A DNA stretch of 34,735 bases from a bacterium (GTDB taxonomy: Bacteria > Chloroflexota > Dormibacteria > Aeolococcales > Aeolococcaceae). The notes under the pieces were generated by a model, which saw nothing but the letters and a program-made list of their open reading frames with translations, had not been told where the DNA came from and did no database searches. A program made the translations under genes and the position numbers. Below, piece after piece: positions 5,243-14,616 of this stretch. How positions within the stretch are numbered: position 1 is the first letter of the stretch; each line of letters opens with the position of its first letter. Location of the stretch: contig JACWAJ010000043.1 of the NCBI GenBank assembly GCA_014874355.1, forward strand, positions 1 to 34,735, written 5' to 3'.

Positions 5243-6163
5243 TTATCCGACCGTGAGTTCGAGACTGGCTACCATTTCCACCCCTCCTCCCCCGGGATAG
5301 CCGGCCGGAACGACTGCGACAATCTCGACCGAACTGCCGGGTACAAGCGATGCCGGAAGCGTAACCACCTGCAGTGGTAGCCCTCCTGCGTTGACGTCAC
5401 TGGTGGGCTGGGCCTCGGTCAGCGGTGCGGCGATACCAGGCACTGGATTGGCCTCCTTCTCCGTTCGCACCGCCACAAGCGACACACAGGGGATGCTCTG
5501 ATTCGGGGCTGCGGCCGCCGTCGAGCCCACCGGACCCGCCACCATCGCCAGTGTGGTGAGGCGGGCGTAGACGAGCACTACCGCACCGGGCGCCGCGCGA
5601 TCTGTACTCGTCGCCAGCACCAATTGCTGGTTGGGCCGGCTGGGATCTGTCCGCGTCACTGCATCTGTGAAGCCCGCGGGCACCGCCGTAGTGCCACCGG
5701 CGGACAGGGCCGTCGGCCGGCAACTTCCCGAATCCACGGTGCTGGTGTATGTCACCGACTGCTGTTCGGCGCCCCCACCCACCGCCCTGCTCGACTTGGA
5801 CGCAGACGTTTCGGGAGCACCACCCGTCGGGCCCAGGTGGATGCTTAGCGCCAGCAACCCAACCGCCGCAACCGCGGCGACCGCCGTCGCGGCCCCGAAG
5901 GCCGGGCGCATATGGATGACCCGCAACCGGTCCCGGAGGGAAGGTTTCGCCGCCACGGGTGGCGTACCCGGCAGGTGGACGGTCACCGGCATCGTCATCT
6001 TCGGCATTGCCCGCAATGCGTCAATGCCAGCACAGAATTCGGCGTAGGCGCTATGGCACTCGTCGCAATTCGCCAGGTGGGTATCGAAGCGATCCCGCGC
6101 AACACCGCCAAGCTCACGCTCGTAGGCTTGTGAGAAGAGGTCCACCACATGCGAAAGAGTCAT
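5243..6163 (-). CDS. Anti-sigma factor with zinc-finger domain and exported C-terminal domain
   Basis: A 306-aa membrane anti-sigma factor. The start is the ATG at 6163, which overlaps the sigma gene stop as ATGA; the longer open frame upstream is a shadow of the sigma gene. The N-terminal domain has the zinc-associated anti-sigma pattern H29-x3-C33-x2-C36 (HLANCDECH), with His5 as a possible fourth ligand. One membrane helix spans about residues 89-108. The rest would be outside the cytoplasm: a low-complexity linker, then an Ala/Val/Pro-rich domain with two cysteines (SCRPTAL and IPCVSLV) that might pair. Known members of the family bind and inhibit the cognate ECF sigma factor until a signal releases it. 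The signal here is unknown. Confidence 0.88.
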   Translation of the reverse strand: MTLSHVVDLFSQAYERELGGVARDRFDTHLANCDECHSAYAEFCAGIDALRAMPKMTMPVTVHLPGTPPVAAKPSLRDRLRVIHMRPAFGAATAVAAVAAVGLLALSIHLGPTGGAPETSASKSSRAVGGGAEQQSVTYTSTVDSGSCRPTALSAGGTTAVPAGFTDAVTRTDPSRPNQQLVLATSTDRAAPGAVVLVYARLTTLAMVAGPVGSTAAAAPNQSIPCVSLVAVRTEKEANPVPGIAAPLTEAQPTSDVNAGGLPLQVVTLPASLVPGSSVEIVAVVPAGYPGGGGVEMVASLELTVG

Positions 6164-6729
6164 CGTGCACTCTCCTCGGCGGCAAACAGGGTGTTGGCAC
6201 GCAACGCGGCCACCAATTGGGCCCGCCCCCGGCTGACGCGCGATTTCACCGTTCCGATGGGAACGGCCAGCGCCTCCGCCATCTCTTCGTAACTGAGTTC
6301 GTTCACGTCGCGCAGCACAACGGCCGCACGGAACTCGGGCTGCACCTGCCGCAATGCCTGGCGAATTGCCACAGCCCGTTCGCGAGCTTCGGCGCTGGCA
6401 TCGGGACCACACGAGGGATCGGGAATATCGACAATGTTGCCTTCGTCATCTTCGAGCGCGCTCGTGGGGTGGCGGCTTTGGCGTCGCCAGATGTCATTGG
6501 AGGCATTGACCGCCACACGGTGGAGCCAGCCACGTACCGAGCCATGCAATGCGGGCAGGTTGAGGTAGGCGCGCAGGAAGGTTTCCTGGACGACGTCGGC
6601 GGCGTCGGCGGTGGAACCGAGGTGGCGAAGCGCCATGGTGTACAGCTCGTCCTGATAGCGGGTGACCAGGACGGCGAAGGCATCCCGGTCGCCGCGCCGG
6701 GCCCGATCGAGAAGCACTCCGTCGTCCAT
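6160..6729 (-). CDS. ECF RNA polymerase sigma factor
   Basis: A 189-aa group 4 (ECF) sigma factor. I chose the ATG at 6729 (MDDGVLLDRARRGD) because upstream codons run through the tRNA-Leu gene. Region 2 is at about residues 15-65 (FAVLVTRYQDELYTMALRHL, then ADAADVVQETFLRAYLNL), with the promoter -10 recognition helix around RGWLHRVAVNASNDIWRR. Region 4 lies near the C terminus (LRDVNELSYEEMAEALAVPIGTVKSRVSRGRAQL), with a helix-turn-helix for the -35. The acidic linker between them (DDEGNIVDIPDPS) is typical. The gene is followed by its anti-sigma gene with a 4-nt overlap, so the pair is co-produced. No target promoter is evident in the window. Confidence 0.95.
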   Translation of the reverse strand: MDDGVLLDRARRGDRDAFAVLVTRYQDELYTMALRHLGSTADAADVVQETFLRAYLNLPALHGSVRGWLHRVAVNASNDIWRRQSRHPTSALEDDEGNIVDIPDPSCGPDASAEARERAVAIRQALRQVQPEFRAAVVLRDVNELSYEEMAEALAVPIGTVKSRVSRGRAQLVAALRANTLFAAEESAR

Positions 6730-6815
6730 GCACCAAGGGTACGCGCTGGCGGACACATTGGTTCCCGGTGGATCCGCCGTCAGGCGGTGTCCACGTGGCA
6801 AGCTACACGGCCTAA

Positions 6816-6898
6816 GCCGGGGTGGCGGAATGGTAGACGCAGCGGTCTCAAAAACCGCCGAGTGCAAGCTCGTGGGGGTTCGACTCCCCCCCCCGGCA
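6816..6898 (+). tRNA. tRNA-Leu (anticodon CAA)
   Basis: An 83-nt class II tRNA. The acceptor stem GCCGGGG (6816-6822) pairs with CCCCGGC (6891-6897), with discriminator A at 6898; CCA is not encoded (CT follows). The anticodon arm GCGGT-CTCAAAA-ACCGC gives anticodon CAA, reading UUG. The variable arm around GAGTGCAAGCTC is long, as expected for leucine tRNAs. The T arm is GGGGG-TTCGACT-CCCCC (6874-6890). All arms pair. The 3' half is repeated at 7042-7094. Confidence 0.95.
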
Positions 6899-6900
6899 CT

Positions 6901-7041
6901 CTCTTGGCCACCCGGTTCCAACCTCCCGGGTTTTGAGACCGCATGGCGGGAGTGAGCAGCAGCCGGCTTGGCCGGTGCTGCGAGAGGGCGGCGAGCCCTC
7001 ACTATCAATGGGGAACCCCGCGCGACAAGGTCGCGTGGGGC
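6901..7041. other. Structured 141-bp spacer between tRNA-Leu and its partial copy
   Basis: No gene is seen here. The spacer contains TTTTGAGACCGC at 6931-6942, an exact inverted copy of the tRNA anticodon arm at 6842-6853. It also holds a hairpin GAGGGC-GGCGA-GCCCTC (6984-7000). A stronger hairpin at 7016-7040 has an 11-bp stem, including one G-T pair, and loop AAG, and abuts the partial tRNA copy within one base. It looks like a scar of insertion or rearrangement, or a small structured RNA processed with the tRNA. Confidence 0.5.
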
Positions 7042-7094
7042 CTCAAAAACCGCCGAGTGCAAGCTCGTGGGGGTTCGACTCCCCCCCCGGCACT
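7042..7094 (+). repeat. Partial duplicate of tRNA-Leu 3' half (tRNA pseudogene / att-like repeat)
   Basis: These 53 nt repeat 6847-6900 exactly except for one missing C in the run before GGCACT. They cover the anticodon loop, variable arm, T arm and 3' acceptor strand. No 5' half (acceptor 5' strand, D arm) precedes it, so it cannot fold as a tRNA. Integrative elements that use the 3' end of a tRNA as attB leave this kind of direct repeat. Here only 141 bp separate the copies and no integrase remains. Confidence 0.85.
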
Positions 7095-7097
7095 TTG

Positions 7098-7733
7098 TTA
7101 TGCGCAGCCAGAGACGCCCGACTGAATTGCCATAGCGTTGTCTTCATGCCCAACAACCGTATTGGTAACTGCCGCCACCGTCGGTCTTAGAGCACCCTCG
7201 CGTTCCACCACTCGCGACGCACGGTGCCGCATCGCCGAATCGGTCAGCCGGATTCCCAGTCGAAATTGCTTGGGTTGGGTCTGCATGCACCAGATTTCCA
7301 ATTCCGCCGGATCATCAAGGTGCCACCGGGGCCGGCGGACCCCGATTTCTTTGATGAGCGCATTGCGAAGTTCCGTGCGAAGAAATCCAGTTTCGGCGAG
7401 TAGCCGCGCGATCACGCGATACCGCATACGCGAGTGCAGGGGCCGAACTGTATTCGTATAGATCGACAACGCTTGTTCCAAGCCCCTGCCGCCCAGGCTT
7501 CGTGCGACCACCCGATGAAGGTCATCACCCGCATGGGCTGTACCGGCCTCTACGAACACGTCCTCGGATAGTCGCAGCATGAGCAAGTTCTCAAGGCTTG
7601 TAGCTTCAAAAGCCACCACGTCATTCCGTCCGTCGAATTCGACTTTGGGATCACGTAGCACAGCGCCCTTCCCGGCAAGTTCCTCAGCCAGCAGCGGACC
7701 GATGCCTTCAATCGCTGTGGCGAAATACCTCAC
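7098..7733 (-). pseudogene. THUMP-domain RNA methyltransferase, truncated (catalytic domain missing)
   Basis: The 211 codons match the N-terminal half of THUMP-containing tRNA/rRNA guanine methyltransferases of the Trm14/RlmL type. Visible parts are the ferredoxin-like start (RYFATAIEGIGPLLAEELAGKGA), the THUMP domain (about 60-160) and the connecting segment (FRLGIRLTDSAMRHRASRVVEREGALRPTVAA). In intact proteins this last segment leads straight into the SAM-binding Rossmann domain (DPxCGxGTxL) and the NPPY motif. Here about 20 unrelated residues and a stop follow, right next to the tRNA-Leu fragment. The gene therefore lost roughly its C-terminal half and is probably inactive as a methyltransferase. 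The GTG start at 7733 overlaps the stop of the zinc-ribbon gene as GTGA, so it may still be translated and could bind RNA. Confidence 0.8.
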
Positions 7734-8425
7734 GGCGCCAGGATGCGATCACAGTTGCTGCACTGGATCAGCTCCGACCCAGACCTCACCGCACGCGCTT
7801 CCAGGATCCCGAGCGGCAGATGACATCCGCCGCAGGAATCGCCGCCCAGGCGCACCACCGCCGGGTGATGACGCCCCGCGACGCGCGTGTAGAGGCTCAT
7901 GTCGGAGGCACCTATCTGCGCGGCCAGTTGCTCTCGCTCTGTCTGGATCACGCCAAGTTCGTCGCGGGTGTGAATCAGATGCTGCTCGGCGGGCTCGCGC
8001 GAAGCCTCCCGATATGCCTCACGCGCTTGAACGGCAGCCTCGGTCGCACGCACGGCCGCATCCGCGGCCTCAGCCGATTCCATCACCACCAGGAGTTCCC
8101 CATCGGCAACGGCCAGCTTCTCCCGCAACGTGTCCAATTCCCGTTGCAGCATCACGAGTTCTGAGGGATTGCCAATGCCGCCTCCGTACAGGCGACCTTC
8201 CAAGCGCTTGGCATGCCGGGTCAGCTCGGAAACCTCGTGATCGACAGCGTTGGCGTTCGCCAGCGCAGCATCGGCATCCGCCTGAGCTTGCACCACCTCC
8301 ACCCGCAACCGGTCCAGTTGATCATCGCCCTGCAGTTCGCTTTCGATGCGAGCGATCTCGCCGTGGAGCGCAGTCAGGCGGAGATCCAGCTCCTGCAAAG
8401 CAAACAGGCCGGCTCCTCGGGTCAC
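7730..8425 (-). CDS. Zinc-ribbon coiled-coil protein (CT398/DUF164 type)
   Basis: A 231-aa protein with a GTG start at 8425. Most of it is a long heptad-rich coiled coil (about residues 8-165, a helical hairpin typical of the family). It ends in a four-cysteine zinc ribbon, CGGC near residue 198 and CSNC near residue 224 (SCGGCHLPLG and LIQCSNCDRIL). The middle GGGIGNPSELVMLQRELDTL is a conserved family segment. The family is widespread, and its role is not firmly established, though nucleic-acid or protein tethering is suspected. It is translationally coupled to the truncated THUMP gene that follows. Confidence 0.9.
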   Translation of the reverse strand: MTRGAGLFALQELDLRLTALHGEIARIESELQGDDQLDRLRVEVVQAQADADAALANANAVDHEVSELTRHAKRLEGRLYGGGIGNPSELVMLQRELDTLREKLAVADGELLVVMESAEAADAAVRATEAAVQAREAYREASREPAEQHLIHTRDELGVIQTEREQLAAQIGASDMSLYTRVAGRHHPAVVRLGGDSCGGCHLPLGILEARAVRSGSELIQCSNCDRILAP

Positions 8426-8518
8426 CCCACCACGACCAGGCTTACGAATGAACCAGGGCGATAGGTCATACGCGGCATCCTAGCAAGGAGTCGAAGACCC
8501 GCCCCGATCCGAGGTATG

Positions 8519-8549
8519 TGATACCCAGTATCACCGATACCAGGTATCA
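8519..8549 (+). promoter_or_regulatory. Double palindromic operator, probably for the Fur-family regulator at the operon end
   Basis: Two 15-bp sites of the form TGATAC-N3-GTATCA lie side by side: TGATACCCAGTATCA (8519-8533, perfect) and CGATACCAGGTATCA (8535-8549, one mismatch). Their centres are 16 bp apart. The pattern resembles Fur/Zur/Mur operators (7-1-7 type). TATCAT at 8545-8550 could be the -10 box, putting the start point within a few bases of the ATG at 8561, so binding would block the promoter. A third overlapping palindrome, GGTAT-GTG-ATACC, is at 8513-8525. Which protein binds is inference. Confidence 0.75.
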
Positions 8550-8560
8550 TCTAGCCGCCC

Positions 8561-9457
8561 ATGAGAAGAGTTGTCGCGCTCGCCACCCTCGCCCTCCTTG
8601 CCGGATGCGGGCTGGCCGGCGGCGGAAACTCGACCTCTGGGGGCCAGCTCTCCGTCGTTGCGGCAGAGGCTTTCTGGGGCAGCCTTGCGACACAGCTGGG
8701 TGGGGATCACGTGGCGGTCACGAACATCGTTTCCGACCCTCATCAAGACCCTCACGATTACGAGAGTTCGCCCCAAGATGCACGGGCTTTTGCGTCTGCA
8801 GACATGGTGATTCTCAACGGCGCCGGATATGACGCATGGGCGCAGAAGCTGCTTGATGCCAACCCCAAGGATGGCCGCACCGTCCTATCCGTGGCCGGCA
8901 TGATCGGCAAGCAGACCTCGGACAACCCCCATTTCTGGTACAGCCCAACCTACGTCGACCAGGTGGCGGACCAGATCACCCAGAACCTGAAGCAACTGGC
9001 GCCCTCCGATGCCACCTACTTCACGGAGCAGCGCACCAAGTTCGCAACCGCGCTCAGGCCCTACCATGATCTCATCACATCGATCCGGGTCCAGTTCGGC
9101 GGCACCCATATCGCCGCCACCGAGAGCGTCTTCAACTACATGAGCGACGCCTTGGGCCTCCAAATCATCTCCCCGCCCGCATTCATGCGAGCGATCTCAG
9201 AGGGCGGCGACCCACCGGTCAGTTCTGCCGCTACGTTCCAGGACCAGATCCAGAACCACCAGGTGAAACTTCTCATCTACAACACCCAGACGGTCACCTC
9301 CGTCACCACCAATCTGAAACAACTTGCCATCGCAGCCGGGGTCCCCGTGGTCGGAGTTTCGGAAACGATGCAGCCGGCCAATTCCAAATTCCAGGACTGG
9401 CAGTACGCCCAGCTTACGGCGTTGCAGAAAGCCCTCAAATTGAGTCCCAGGGGCTAG
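8561..9457 (+). CDS. znuA: Zinc/manganese ABC transporter substrate-binding lipoprotein
   Basis: A 298-aa cluster A-I (ZnuA/TroA-like) binding protein. The N terminus is a lipoprotein signal with lipobox LAGC (lipid-attached Cys16). Metal-ligand regions of the family are visible: His in DPHQDPHDYESSP, His in NPHFWYSP, and the acidic C-terminal region (GVSETMQPAN). The third ligand region, usually a histidine before the second lobe, reads IAATESVFNYMSDALGL and keeps glutamate rather than histidine. There is no long histidine-rich loop. It would capture Zn(II) or Mn(II) outside the membrane and deliver it to the ATPase/permease pair that follows. Metal choice is not decided by sequence. It is first in a four-gene operon under the double operator. 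Confidence 0.9.
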   Translation: MRRVVALATLALLAGCGLAGGGNSTSGGQLSVVAAEAFWGSLATQLGGDHVAVTNIVSDPHQDPHDYESSPQDARAFASADMVILNGAGYDAWAQKLLDANPKDGRTVLSVAGMIGKQTSDNPHFWYSPTYVDQVADQITQNLKQLAPSDATYFTEQRTKFATALRPYHDLITSIRVQFGGTHIAATESVFNYMSDALGLQIISPPAFMRAISEGGDPPVSSAATFQDQIQNHQVKLLIYNTQTVTSVTTNLKQLAIAAGVPVVGVSETMQPANSKFQDWQYAQLTALQKALKLSPRG

Positions 9458-9459
9458 AC

Positions 9460-10299
9460 ATGGAAACTGAAGGCATCACCGAACTCGCCTGCCTCAAGAA
9501 TGTTGGCGTGCGGCTGGGGGACCGGACCATCTGGTCGGGGGCCAGTCTCTGTCTGGCACCCGGCACGGTGACGGCCGTCTTGGGGCCCAATGGTTCTGGC
9601 AAGTCGACTTTGCTCCGCCTCCTACTGGGGCTGGTTCCACCGAGTTCGGGAAAGGTGCAAGTTCTGGGCAGGCCACCGAAGCACGGCAGCGCCGCAATTG
9701 GCTATGTACCCCAGCGGAGCGGTATCGACCCCGATCTTCCCGTCCGAGGGCGAGACCTGGTGCTGCTGGGGGCCAATGGAACCCGGTGGGGTTGGGGACT
9801 GCCCGGCGCCGCCTCGCGGCGTCGCCACCAACTCGTTGACAAAGCATTGAGTGCCGTCGGAGCCACCGCCTACGCCAACCGGGCCATCGGACGCCTGTCG
9901 GGTGGCGAACAGCAACGGCTCCTGCTCGCCCAAGCTCTGGTCAGCGAGCCCCGACTGCTGTTTCTGGACGAACCCCTTACCAGCCTGGACATCCGCAATC
10001 AGGTGGTGATCTCCCAACTGGTGACCAATATCGCCCAAGAGCGTCACATCGGCGTGCTCATGGTGACCCACGACATCAACCCCATCATGAACGTCGTCGA
10101 TCAGGTGGTCTACATCGCACGGGGCCGCGTCGCAGTGGGGCGGCCCGCTGACATCATCACGACCACTGCCCTCTCGGAGCTCTACGACGCCCCCGTCGAG
10201 GTCGTTCACGACCATCGAGGCCGCGTCTTTGTGGTGGGGTTGGAGGCTGAGGTCGCACACCCGCACGACCACGGCAGCACTGGCGGGAATGGCCGATGA
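9460..10299 (+). CDS. znuC: Zinc/manganese ABC transporter ATP-binding protein
   Basis: A 279-aa ABC ATPase that powers metal import. Walker A is GPNGSGKST (42-50), the Q-loop follows in GYVPQRSG, the signature is RLSGGEQQRLLLAQAL, Walker B is RLLFLDEP, and the switch histidine is in VLMVTHDIN. The C terminus ends in a histidine-rich stretch (EVAHPHDHGSTGG) that may bind metal. It starts 2 nt after the binding-protein stop and overlaps the permease start by 4 nt (ATGA), so all three are coupled. Zinc versus manganese is not settled by sequence. Confidence 0.93.
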   Translation: METEGITELACLKNVGVRLGDRTIWSGASLCLAPGTVTAVLGPNGSGKSTLLRLLLGLVPPSSGKVQVLGRPPKHGSAAIGYVPQRSGIDPDLPVRGRDLVLLGANGTRWGWGLPGAASRRRHQLVDKALSAVGATAYANRAIGRLSGGEQQRLLLAQALVSEPRLLFLDEPLTSLDIRNQVVISQLVTNIAQERHIGVLMVTHDINPIMNVVDQVVYIARGRVAVGRPADIITTTALSELYDAPVEVVHDHRGRVFVVGLEAEVAHPHDHGSTGGNGR

Positions 10300-11195
10300 C
10301 CCCGACCTTCTTGCTCGACACGGTCGTAGGACCGGCTCCATCCCTCAACCTGGTTGACGACATTGCCGGACTACTCCACTACCAGTTCATGCGCAACGCC
10401 TTCGAGGCCGGCACCATCGTCGCCATCGTCGCCGGGGTAATCGGCTACTTCGTCGTCCTGCGCGGCCTCAGTTTTGCCGGCCACGCCGTATCCCACATCG
10501 GCTATGCGGGCGCCACCGGCGCCGTCCTTATAGGCGTCGCCCCGCTTGGCGGACTGTTGACATTCACCGTCGGCGCAGCAATGGCCATGGGGTTTTTGGG
10601 CAAGCGGCTCTGGGGCCGCGATGTCGCCATCGGCATTGTCATGGCCTTCTCGCTCGGACTAGGCCAGCTCTTCGTCACCTTGTACAAGGGCAGCGGCAGC
10701 ACCAGTCAATCGAATGCGATCCTCTTCGGCGAAGTTCTCGGCATCAGCCGCGGTGACATCGTTATCACGCTTGGCATAAGCAGCGTGACGCTACTGCTCA
10801 TCGGCATCTTCTATCGCCAGTTGTTGTTTGCCTCACTCGCCGCCGAGGTGGCGGAAGCGCGAGGCGTGCGCGTGCAGGAACTGGGGGTGGTATTCCTGGG
10901 TATTACCGGACTTGCGGTCGCACAGTCGGTTCAAGTAACCGGCGTACTGCTGATCTTCGCGCTGCTTGTGGCACCGGCAGCGATAGCCCAGCGCATCAGC
11001 ACGCGACCCCCATATGCAATCGCAATCAGTGTCGTGATCGCAGTCCTCTTCACCTGGACGGCACTGACCCTCGCCTACTACTACGGGTATCCCGTGAGTT
11101 TCTTCCTCACCGCCATCGCCTTTGTCGCGTACTTGGTCACCCGCGCTGCCGGCAGCACTCCCGCCTGGATGACCCGACTGCGGGGCCGTGCCTGA
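10296..11195 (+). CDS. znuB: Zinc/manganese ABC transporter permease
   Basis: A 299-aa integral membrane protein of the ABC-3 permease family. It has about eight helices (for example IVAIVAGVIGYFVVLRGLSFAGHAVSH, VAIGIVMAFSLGLGQLFVTLYKG, VTGVLLIFALLVAPAAIAQRIS). The conserved FAGHAVSHIGYAGATGAVLIG loop and the coupling region VLLIFALLVAPAA are characteristic. The start overlaps the ATPase stop as ATGA. The stop TGA shares its A with the ATG of the regulator gene. Confidence 0.93.
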   Translation: MTPTFLLDTVVGPAPSLNLVDDIAGLLHYQFMRNAFEAGTIVAIVAGVIGYFVVLRGLSFAGHAVSHIGYAGATGAVLIGVAPLGGLLTFTVGAAMAMGFLGKRLWGRDVAIGIVMAFSLGLGQLFVTLYKGSGSTSQSNAILFGEVLGISRGDIVITLGISSVTLLLIGIFYRQLLFASLAAEVAEARGVRVQELGVVFLGITGLAVAQSVQVTGVLLIFALLVAPAAIAQRISTRPPYAIAISVVIAVLFTWTALTLAYYYGYPVSFFLTAIAFVAYLVTRAAGSTPAWMTRLRGRA

Positions 11196-11638
11196 TGTCG
11201 GGCAGAGATAACGAATTCCTGCTGGCGTCGACAGGTCACCGGCTCACACCCCAGCGCCGCATCATCTTCGATGCCCTGTGCCAGAGCCATCGCACCATGA
11301 CCGCGCCGGAGATGTTCCTGCGCCTGCGCGACAAACACCCTTCACTTGGCCGCGCCACCGTGTTTCGCAGCCTCGACGCGCTGGTAGCAGCAGGACTGGC
11401 CCAGCGTTTCGAACGCGACGGCCACGTTTACGCCTACGCGAGTTGTTCGACCCACCACCACCATCACCTCATATGCACAAACTGCAACCACACCACGGAG
11501 ATCGATGAAGACGTCATCGCACCGCTGGTGGACTCGCTCAGCCGGCGCTACGGTTTCTCTGCGAAACACCAGACGCTCGATTTCCACGGCCTGTGCGCCG
11601 CATGTCAGCGGCAGGAACCGTCGAGCGCACCCGCCTAA
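11195..11638 (+). CDS. Fur-family metal-responsive repressor (Zur/Mur-like)
   Basis: A 147-aa Fur-family regulator. The winged helix lies at about residues 15-80 (HRLTPQRRIIFDAL; RATVFRSLDALVAAGLAQRF). The dimerisation/metal domain contains a HHHHH run (87-91) and the structural zinc cysteines C94/C97 (CTNC) and C134/C137 (CAAC). Because the gene is co-transcribed with the importer and the operon has two Fur-type palindromes, autoregulated control of metal uptake is the likely job. Zur is the most economical reading; Mur (manganese) cannot be excluded. It overlaps the permease stop by one base and ends 17 bp from a convergent gene. Confidence 0.92.
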   Translation: MSGRDNEFLLASTGHRLTPQRRIIFDALCQSHRTMTAPEMFLRLRDKHPSLGRATVFRSLDALVAAGLAQRFERDGHVYAYASCSTHHHHHLICTNCNHTTEIDEDVIAPLVDSLSRRYGFSAKHQTLDFHGLCAACQRQEPSSAPA

Positions 11639-11654
11639 GGATTGCGGTCGCACA

Positions 11655-12347
11655 CTACGATTGGCATGTCGGCGCCGTTCCATCAACAACGATGAAGCCG
11701 TTGGCATCGGACTGGGACCGTTTCCCTGCGCCGTAGTACAGCTCGAATTGAGCATGGCTGAACACGATGGCGGAGGGCGTGAGGGTATATGAGCCGGTAG
11801 ACGCGACCCCCGAGTAACGCGAACGCCCCTCATCCAATTCCACCGCAGGATTCATCGCAGTCACTTGCTGGACGGGGATAATCTCAAACTGGACAATGTG
11901 GCCACCACGAGTAATATCCGTATAGGCGACCGTAGTTCCCACGTCGTCGAAAGGCGCAGAGATTGCCTTGGATGTCGGGCCAATGTCGTCACCGAGAACC
12001 CCATGCTCGTCAACACATGTGAACCCTGAGAGTACGGCGGTGCGAACGGGCTGCCCCGAGAAGGCCACCGTGACGTTGAGACTTCCTGGCCCGGCGGCCG
12101 GGTGAGGCGGTTTTGGTGTCGGTGGTGGAGAGCCGTTCGACTCCAGGAAGCCACCATTGTGGATGCTCGCCCCGAAGAAAGAGTTGGCCAACGACCCCAA
12201 GATGGCCATGCCGATGACTCCCAGTACGAGCGGGACGAGAATGCAGCCAAGCCCAACGCCACTACACCCACCCAACATTCCAGAGAGGAAGGGCTTTCCG
12301 GCTGATTGCTGGGGCGGCTGATACTGCACATAGGGGACGTTCTGCAT
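11655..12347 (-). CDS. Membrane-anchored protein with exported domain, unknown function
   Basis: A 230-aa protein starting at the ATG at 12347 (MQNVPYVQYQPPQQS). An in-frame codon further upstream (12389) only adds a poor leader. The layout is a short proline/glutamine-rich cytoplasmic head, one glycine-rich membrane segment (about 25-55, GLGCILVPLVLGVIGMAILG), a Pro/Lys linker (PPPTPKPPHP) and an extracellular beta-rich domain. Toward the C terminus of that domain is a FELYYGAGKR segment. The layout resembles actinobacterial DUF4352-type proteins, but I see no decisive motif. It lies downstream of another membrane protein, 105 bp away on the same strand. Confidence 0.65.
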   Translation of the reverse strand: MQNVPYVQYQPPQQSAGKPFLSGMLGGCSGVGLGCILVPLVLGVIGMAILGSLANSFFGASIHNGGFLESNGSPPPTPKPPHPAAGPGSLNVTVAFSGQPVRTAVLSGFTCVDEHGVLGDDIGPTSKAISAPFDDVGTTVAYTDITRGGHIVQFEIIPVQQVTAMNPAVELDEGRSRYSGVASTGSYTLTPSAIVFSHAQFELYYGAGKRSQSDANGFIVVDGTAPTCQS

Positions 12348-12452
12348 GTGTCCCACCGTAGCAATCGCGAAAGGACGTGATCGGGACAAAGACTAGCCAC
12401 CCATGCCGCAAGAGATGGCTCAACTGTGGTCAAACCTTGGTGGCGCGGACGG

Positions 12453-13889
12453 TCAGCGCGGCCGGGGTTGCCAGGTCGCTCCGTCGAAGTAGTAATAGCC
12501 ATCTGGGGAAATCGGAACACGCTGCCACGCTCCGGCTGCGGCATCCCACCAGTAGTTCTTATCGTCGGAGATCGTCGCTCCGGCCGGAGGCGTCGCCACC
12601 GGAGGTAGCGCGGCATCGGGAGCCGCCACAACCTCTGCCGGCGTCTCTGCAACAAGCTCCGGCTCGATGACAGGCTCCGGCTGCGGCATGCGCATCCACG
12701 CGCCGGCTGCGGCATCCCACCAGTAGTTCTTATCGTCGGAGATCGTCGCTCCGGCCGGAGGCGTCGCCACCGGGGGTGGCGCGGCATCGGGAACCGCATT
12801 CTCCACAGGTGCTGACGTCTCGGCCCCCGTCACCGGCTGCGACCCCGGTTCCAACGGTGGTTCGGCCGCCGCGACCACGGGAGCCGCCTCCACAGGAACC
12901 GGGGTCGCAGCGACCGGCAGAGGACTCGCGGCCGGCATGGGCACTGCCGTAGACAGCAGCATCGATGGTATGGGCTGCACGGTGCGACCCGAAACGACGG
13001 CAACGACAACCCCGATAACGAAAACCCCGCTACCAATGCCAAGCATTACCAGGTTCGCCGTCCCCAGATCGGTGACCTGCCCACGCAGGAGCAAGAAGGT
13101 CGCCACGACAACTCCGGCAACCCCACCGGCGACAATGCCACGCGACCCCGCGCCAAGCGTTGCGGCCAGCAGAATTCCCGCCAGAGCCACGCACACACCG
13201 CCGACATTGAGCCAGGTATGTACGTCACCGGCCGGTCCCTGAGACATGCCGAACACCAAGCCCACCATGCCAAACAGGCGCAAAAACTCAGCGTGATCGC
13301 TGCCACGCAACCGCGGCAGCAGGCTCGTCAGCAGCAGTACCAAACCACCGCCGGCAAAAACTGCCGGTATCACGACTTCAGGAGAGGAAACGCTGCCGTT
13401 CTGGATGGCGGCGGTGCCGAAATTCACTGCCGCGAAATCCGCCGCGACAAGTAAAAATACCAGCAGGAAATTGCGCCACCAAGCCAATGCAACGATTAGC
13501 AGTAGCGCGGCCAGAGCGGCTGCCATCGTGAATACCGAATTCGAATCGACAGCCGGAATGCCCGAGTTGAACACACCGGCACCAAACAACACCTCAATAC
13601 AGACGACCCCCAGGCCAACGCTGGCCACGGCTACCGCCGTGGCAACGCCACGATCCCGCATCGGCGTACTGGGTCGTCGCATCAGCACAATCCCAACCGC
13701 CACGCCCACAACCACATAGGCCCCGTCGATGAGTGCCCGGGCCCACCAGTCGAGGGCGGGTTGCCACTGATAGGTGGCCAGAAGCCCACCGACCGTGCCC
13801 AGCATGAGACCGACATAGATGAACGCTTCGACCACCCCGAACCGGCCCGTCCGGACTTGACCATGTGCCTGCTCGGAATCTGTCGCCAT
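12453..13889 (-). CDS. Multi-pass membrane protein with C-terminal tryptophan/tyrosine repeat modules
   Basis: A 478-aa protein. The ATG at 13889 has a strong ribosome site (AGGAGG, 7 nt upstream), which decides the start over an earlier in-frame codon. The N-terminal two thirds contain about ten hydrophobic helices. A Pro/Ala/Val linker follows, then three short aromatic modules: two nearly identical copies of ISDDKNYWWDAAAGAW and a final PDGYYYFDGATWQPRP. The modules resemble the short W-rich DUF2510-type motifs at the ends of actinobacterial membrane proteins, though here they are C-terminal. No enzyme motif is seen. The linker and repeats probably lie on one side of the membrane as a binding tail. 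Confidence 0.75.
   Translation of the reverse strand: MATDSEQAHGQVRTGRFGVVEAFIYVGLMLGTVGGLLATYQWQPALDWWARALIDGAYVVVGVAVGIVLMRRPSTPMRDRGVATAVAVASVGLGVVCIEVLFGAGVFNSGIPAVDSNSVFTMAAALAALLLIVALAWWRNFLLVFLLVAADFAAVNFGTAAIQNGSVSSPEVVIPAVFAGGGLVLLLTSLLPRLRGSDHAEFLRLFGMVGLVFGMSQGPAGDVHTWLNVGGVCVALAGILLAATLGAGSRGIVAGGVAGVVVATFLLLRGQVTDLGTANLVMLGIGSGVFVIGVVVAVVSGRTVQPIPSMLLSTAVPMPAASPLPVAATPVPVEAAPVVAAAEPPLEPGSQPVTGAETSAPVENAVPDAAPPPVATPPAGATISDDKNYWWDAAAGAWMRMPQPEPVIEPELVAETPAEVVAAPDAALPPVATPPAGATISDDKNYWWDAAAGAWQRVPISPDGYYYFDGATWQPRPR
12532..12792 (-). repeat. Pair of 90-bp direct repeats inside the membrane-protein gene
   Basis: 12532-12621 and 12703-12792 match at 88 of 90 positions, offset by 171 bp (57 codons). 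They encode the two copies of the PPVATPPAGATISDDKNYWW module and its flanks. The sequence between the copies is not repeated. Near-identity at DNA level, including third positions, points to recent duplication or ongoing gene conversion. Confidence 0.9.
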
Positions 13890-13998
13890 CTTGCAGCCTC
13901 CTGGGTGACCTGCCCGAACGTCAACGTGTCGGGACAAAGGGGACTCTAACGCCAGGGCCCCTCCTATGACACTCAACGTACCCTAAACGGGAAATCTG

Positions 13999-14616
13999 AT
14001 GAATGACGACACCCATTACTTCGCAGCACGGCCTAGTGCCAAGTCCCACCCACAGCCAGTGGCAGTGCGACTGTCAGACGTCAACCTCGACATCCAGAGC
14101 GATAGCGGCGTCTTCTCCAAAGGCGCCTTGGACCGTGGCACAGAGTTCCTGCTCCGAGCTGCACCCGGCCCACCCACGAAAGGTGCCATTCTGGATCTCG
14201 GCTGCGGTTACGGCGCCATCGCTCTGGTCACAGCGCTGCGCCATCCGCACACCGACGTATGGGCCGTCGACGTGAACGAGCGAGCCCTGGAACTGACGCG
14301 GCGCAACGCGGCAGCGGCCGGCATCGATAACGTTCACGCCGCCACACCCGACGAGGTTCCAGCCGATCTGCGCCTGGCCGCCATCTACTCCAACCCGCCG
14401 GTGCGAGTTGGCAAAGCCAGCCTCCACGAGATGCTGACGCGATGGCTCGATCGCCTCGTGGTTGACGGCCGGGCCTTCCTCGTCATGCACCGCTATCTCG
14501 GCGCCGATTCACTGGTGGACTGGCTCAACCTGAACGGTTACCCAACCGAACGGCTACGTTCGCGGCAGGGTTACCGGCTGTTGACCGTGACACCGAAGCG
14601 GCAGGACCAGGCATGA
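13999..14616 (+). CDS. RsmC-like class I SAM-dependent methyltransferase
   Basis: A 205-aa small-methyltransferase-domain (MTS) protein. The N terminus FAARPSAKSHPQP precedes the core. Core motifs are motif I ILDLGCGYGAIALV (about 62-75), the acidic loop VWAVDVNERALELTRRNA, and the catalytic SNPPVRVGK (about 134), the NPP signature of N-methyltransferases that act on guanine or glutamine. It is close in length to the single-domain 16S rRNA G1207-type enzymes (RsmC C-terminal half), so an rRNA guanine N2 target is a reasonable but unproved guess. The stop overlaps the lgt start by 4 nt, making one transcription unit with lgt and the rhomboid-like gene. Confidence 0.85.
   Translation: MNDDTHYFAARPSAKSHPQPVAVRLSDVNLDIQSDSGVFSKGALDRGTEFLLRAAPGPPTKGAILDLGCGYGAIALVTALRHPHTDVWAVDVNERALELTRRNAAAAGIDNVHAATPDEVPADLRLAAIYSNPPVRVGKASLHEMLTRWLDRLVVDGRAFLVMHRYLGADSLVDWLNLNGYPTERLRSRQGYRLLTVTPKRQDQA

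Follow-up and report, generated by a model that had tools for sequence, protein, structure and literature searches.

On a contig from a soil bacterium of Dormibacterota, an intact tRNA gene is followed by a second copy of its own 3′ half, and directly beyond that copy a methyltransferase gene stops short of its catalytic domain. This arrangement raises the question of which events produced it, and whether a single event could have produced both the copy and the truncation. A reading made from the sequence alone had proposed that an element inserted at the tRNA gene and that one later excision or deletion removed the element together with the 3′ part of the methyltransferase gene. Here, we analyzed the entire contig (G000:C25; 34,735 nt; 63% GC; from here on, the window) in the context of its genome, which comprises 1.45 Mb in 76 contigs with a completeness of 98.8% and a contamination of 0.68%, and of related genomes. 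The features on which the argument rests are listed in Table 1.

Table 1. Features of the locus in the window
Feature	Coordinates	Strand	Basis or remark
ECF sigma factor gene, left flank of the tRNA	6160..6730	-	Same place in relatives G004 and G026
tRNA-Leu(CAA), intact	6816..6899	+	ARAGORN; Rfam tRNA, 58.8 bits
Anticodon loop/crossover core CTCAAAA	6847-6853	+	Sequence, within tRNA-Leu(CAA)
Spacer, presumed remnant of an inserted element, 142 bp	6900..7041	.	Unique in the genome; hairpin-rich
Inverted anticodon arm GCGGT-CTCAAAA-CCCG, third crossover-like core	6927..6942	-	Repeat search and shuffle test
tRNA-Leu 3′-half copy, one C missing	7042..7094	+	Sequence, repeat search, blastn
AT-richer DNA between the copy and the methyltransferase break, 72 bp	7095..7166	.	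Encodes the stop and the last 22 codons, which are unrelated to the family
Truncated THUMP-type RNA methyltransferase (Trm14/TrmN/RlmL-like)	7098..7733	-	Homolog alignment; homologous part 7167-7733
CT398-like coiled coil and zinc ribbon protein	7730..8425	-	Pfam; GTGA overlap with the truncated gene downstream
RsmC-like methyltransferase, start of the conserved right flank	13999..14616	+	Order RsmC-like, lgt, then dnaE

The 3′ half of tRNA-Leu(CAA) is repeated at an integrase-type boundary

ARAGORN predicted a single tRNA in the window, Leu(CAA). The stretch at 6847-6900, which comprises the tRNA from the opening base of its anticodon loop through its 3′ end plus one base beyond the gene (6900), recurs at 7042-7094, at a start-to-start distance of 195 bp, and a run of nine C in the tRNA is reduced to eight in the copy. 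The coordinates and blastn thus agree with the earlier claim that the 54-nt 3′ half recurs 195 bp downstream with one base missing. With the tRNA as the query, blastn found only two places in the 1.45-Mb genome, and the E value of 1.2e-19 for the copy excludes chance. The possibility that the copy is part of a second functional tRNA was rejected, as ARAGORN predicted none there and a tRNA-Sec match at 7010-7088, with 23.4 bits, stayed below the gathering score of 47. We conclude that 6816-6899 is best read as the restored target gene (attL side) and 7042-7094 as the displaced tRNA fragment (attR-like), i.e., as a decayed attL/attR scar, and that the copy is most likely the footprint of an inserted and since decayed mobile DNA element.

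This layout has counterparts among known tRNA integration systems. Partial tRNA genes resulting from integration are widespread (PMC9897764), displaced tRNA fragments mark the ends of islands, and the crossover sublocations described are the anticodon loop, the T loop, and the T/acceptor junction (PMC4383910). As in the class A islands of Islander (PMC4383910), the window has an intact tRNA followed by a 3′ fragment in the same replicon and orientation that starts at the anticodon loop; the boundary of the fragment falls on the first anticodon-loop base, as it does in the relatives described below. Unlike in those islands, only 142 bp separate the tRNA and the fragment, this interval lacks an integrase gene, PF00589 is not matched anywhere in the genome, and the start-to-start distance of 195 bp falls short of the length of an island. 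Because the integrase is absent and the distance is only 195 bp, we filed the locus as a scar and not as an island. The copy also resembles the category 1b partial tRNA genes (PMC9897764) in being a partial, non-canonical tRNA sequence attributable to the integration of an element; however, the archaeal fragments in that category still mark elements of about 9-23 kb, whereas the presumed element of the window is almost gone.

tRNA-Leu(CAA) is a recurrent integration site in related genomes

Using blastn with tRNA-Leu against 61 genomes, we identified 3′-half copies with the same start in nine other genomes of the class (Dormibacterota relatives; G014, G019, G020, G030, G046, G048, G049, G055, and G057), with one to three copies per genome. 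The first bases of these copies are those of the anticodon loop, CTCAAAA or a closely similar sequence, and the DNA preceding them is in most cases unrelated to the tRNA. Tyrosine integrases adjoin the tRNA in G014, where the open reading frame of the integrase terminates within the tRNA in antisense, and in G030 and G057; in the latter, an integrase is also found near a copy. Relics of integrase C termini accompany the copies of G019 and G030, and in G048 such a relic adjoins the tRNA. The order tRNA, interval, copy, and old integrase stub in G019 and G030 represents stacked insertions. The window has the same order (tRNA, interval, 3′-half copy, and other DNA), but keeps neither integrase genes nor stubs, while G019 and G030 keep one or the other. 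On G057:C14, two integrases and two displaced 3′ copies, roughly 23 and 30 kb distant, accompany tRNA-Leu in an apparent tandem island array.

These data support that tRNA-Leu(CAA) is a recurrent integration hot spot among the Dormibacterota relatives searched, of which the window most likely holds one scar. No description of this hot spot in Dormibacterota was found in a narrow literature search.

The earlier reading had suggested a search of the same genome for tyrosine integrases. A profile search for tyrosine recombinases (PF00589) yielded none in the whole window genome, which is 98.8% complete, and XerC/XerD therefore likewise went undetected. Two serine recombinases are encoded on other contigs (C19 and C32). 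They were discarded as the cause of the copy, because serine recombinases do not usually leave a target duplication of 53 bp.

An inverted anticodon arm lies within the spacer

The spacer sequence occurs once in the window genome and contains no recognizable element gene. Folded together with the copy, it is more stable than shuffled sequences (z = -2.97). In comparisons with phages and plasmids, matches were confined to the tRNA part of the query; the att core was not found in viral contigs, and the similarity of the spacer and of the 72-bp tail beyond the copy to the element ends of relatives was no better than that of shuffles.

Within the spacer, an inverted anticodon arm (6927-6942) includes the entire 7-base crossover sequence. 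It matches the tRNA arm at 15/17 positions compared to a maximum of 13 in 2000 spacer shuffles, a contrast that is somewhat flattered because nothing but base composition is preserved in the shuffles and the arm used as the query was picked after the repeat had already been seen. No comparable inverted arm above 13 was present in the flanks of the relatives that we examined. The inverted arm may be an integrase site, the remnant of an inversion, or a replication accident.

The methyltransferase gene ends directly before its catalytic domain

The open reading frame at 7098-7733 on the minus strand has 211 codons; its start overlaps the upstream gene at 7730-8425 on the same strand, and its end lies 4 bp from the tRNA copy. 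The encoded protein alone had no Pfam match. A class-wide search returned one clear relative, an intact 363-aa protein in G089, which is 38-39% identical to the fragment over the first ~189 residues of the latter (39% over residues 5-196) and in which residues 185-325 form a UPF0020 methyltransferase domain. When the two proteins were used phylum-wide as a two-sequence profile, 102 of 400 genomes gave matches, the window genome included. An alignment of about 30 intact homologs from the phylum displays an N-terminal region, ALRP.AAA, and then LDPMCGSGT and TNLPFGK. Two homologs tested matched UPF0020 strongly and RlmL_1st and THUMP weakly, and one homolog compared with solved structures matched Trm14 and a related methyltransferase. 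Via these intact homologs, the fragment possesses the ferredoxin-like/THUMP N-terminal region common to Trm14/TrmN and RlmL-type THUMP methyltransferases (3tlj, 3tma, and 3v8v), while it differs from these enzymes in being without their Rossmann-fold catalytic domain. The homologs, the UPF0020 domain, and the Trm14 structure matches confirm the initial assignment of the gene as a THUMP-type methyltransferase.

Homology of the fragment ends at codon 189 with ALRPTVAAV (7193-7167), directly before the position of SAM motif I (LDPxxGSGT), and the catalytic domain with motif I and the N(L/P)PFG motif is absent beyond 7167. The 22 codons that follow are unrelated to the family and have a GC content of 51% versus 63% for the window. 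The homolog alignment therefore bears out the earlier statement that only about 20 codons lie between the expected start of the Rossmann domain and the end of the gene. We considered that an intact methyltransferase might continue in frame beyond 7098, masked by a sequencing error. However, only 72 bp are available from the break to the copy, and none of the three frames resembles the lost domain or contains its motifs; thus, a frameshift cannot conceal the rest of the gene. The catalytic half was also sought elsewhere in the window genome and was not found: matches to PF01170 were confined to PrmC on C24 and a pair of DNA-methylase-like genes on C59, and the two-sequence profile gave no further match. 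The two DNA-methylase-like genes adjoin each other on an 11-kb contig that, by eye, also encodes an apparent PrgI-type protein and is possibly a conjugative or other mobile element.

Family-level relatives had no clear match to the fragment, and a contig scan with the gene fragment recovered no relative. In relatives, the CT398-like gene is normally followed by a gene for RNase HI instead of a methyltransferase, indicating that the methyltransferase in the window is a lineage-specific neighbor. Overall, the truncated gene looks like the lineage-specific loss of an RNA-modifying enzyme. On a larger scale, the host orders polA-BFN-sigma-tRNA and RsmC-like-lgt are kept among relatives, and variation is found only between the tRNA and the RsmC-like gene. 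Positions 7730-13976 of the window carry the CT398-like gene, znuA and ABC transporter genes, a gene for a Fur-family regulator, and two unassigned open reading frames; in G004 and G023, YbjQ-like and sarcosine-oxidase-like genes (by eye) occupy the equivalent interval.

A probable history of integration and later deletions

Taken as a whole, an integration scar followed by later deletions is the probable history of the locus. The tRNA-Leu(CAA) gene would be the target of elements with a tyrosine integrase that crosses over in the anticodon loop. Upon integration, the attP copy of the 3′ half would have restored the tRNA at 6816-6899, and the original 3′ half would have been displaced to 7042-7094. 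Internal deletion would later have reduced the element to 142 bp, and another deletion, on the right-hand side of the copy, would have fused 72 bp of other DNA to the middle of the Trm14-like methyltransferase gene with loss of the catalytic domain. The 72 bp may be old host flank or what remains of a second tandem element such as relatives have; neither the spacer nor the 72-bp tail matches the element ends of relatives, so that the second element is conjectural. That an integrase made the copy in the window, as well as the order and number of the deletions, is what we infer from this layout.

The number of events is constrained by the position of the copy. Precise excision, by recombination between the repeats, would leave a single intact tRNA gene; because the second repeat copy is still present, the element was deleted from within and not precisely excised. 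Moreover, the internal deletion lies to the left of the copy and the loss of methyltransferase sequence to its right, and one event cannot do both and keep the copy. Therefore, at least two deletions, or an independent truncation, are needed to explain the scar and the cut methyltransferase gene; the layout is compatible with two separate events or with a stacked second element that, when lost, carried away the end of the gene. Integrase-mediated insertion at the tRNA, as originally proposed, is supported by the anticodon-loop boundary and by the copies in nine genomes, several with integrases, while the single excision or deletion has to be given up, as excision leaves no copy and the copy lies between the two losses.

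Other origins of the repeat were weighed against this history. The copy could have arisen by local duplication through template switching or unequal exchange, with no integrase involved and with the inverted arm stemming from the same replication accident; the spacing of only 195 bp, the lack of any remaining element gene, and the inverted partial copy in between are in agreement with this. We nevertheless consider it unlikely, since the boundary is the anticodon loop, where copies of this tRNA gene also begin in nine relatives, several of them with integrases. The inverted core counts against the integration scar, because plain insertion does not predict it, and so do the lack of an integrase and of any recognizable element gene and the failure of the spacer and the 72-bp tail to resemble element ends from relatives. 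With three CTCAAAA cores within about 200 bp and a hairpin-rich spacer, the tRNA, the inverted core, and the direct core might instead constitute a minimal non-autonomous element or a platform on which integrases act in trans, and not a scar, but this is very improbable. Alternatively, reads from a strain with the full element could have been mis-joined at the repeat, in which case the short spacer or the truncated end would be unreal. The genome is in 76 contigs, and short assembly k-mers may not span a repeat of 53 bp; on the other hand, the spacer is unique in the genome, completeness and contamination are favorable, and, because 72 bp lie between the repeat and the point at which the methyltransferase gene is broken, a mis-join at the repeat alone does not account for the truncation. 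An assembly artifact is thus quite unlikely.

A different issue is whether the scar and the truncation are connected. The scar may be real and the methyltransferase gene may have decayed on its own during genome reduction, a scenario that concerns only the link between the two and overlaps with the integration scar history. In its favor, the copy sits between the spacer and the gene, 72 bp apart; GC3 of the fragment is 0.61 versus 0.72-0.77 in the other genes of the window; family-level relatives are without a clear match to the gene; and the genome, at 1.45 Mb, compares with about 1.4-4.4 Mb for draft genomes of the family. However, no more than 75 bp separate the break from the copy, and this region varies among the relatives compared, which favors a deletion connected with the unstable site, and we regard unrelated decay as a serious possibility, but not the leading one.

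Returning to the integration scar, tRNA-Leu(CAA), in the interval from the sigma factor gene to RsmC-lgt, is a recurrent and apparently undescribed integration site among the Dormibacterota relatives searched. The window shows an end state of this process, in which a genome without a detectable tyrosine recombinase still bears the footprint of one.
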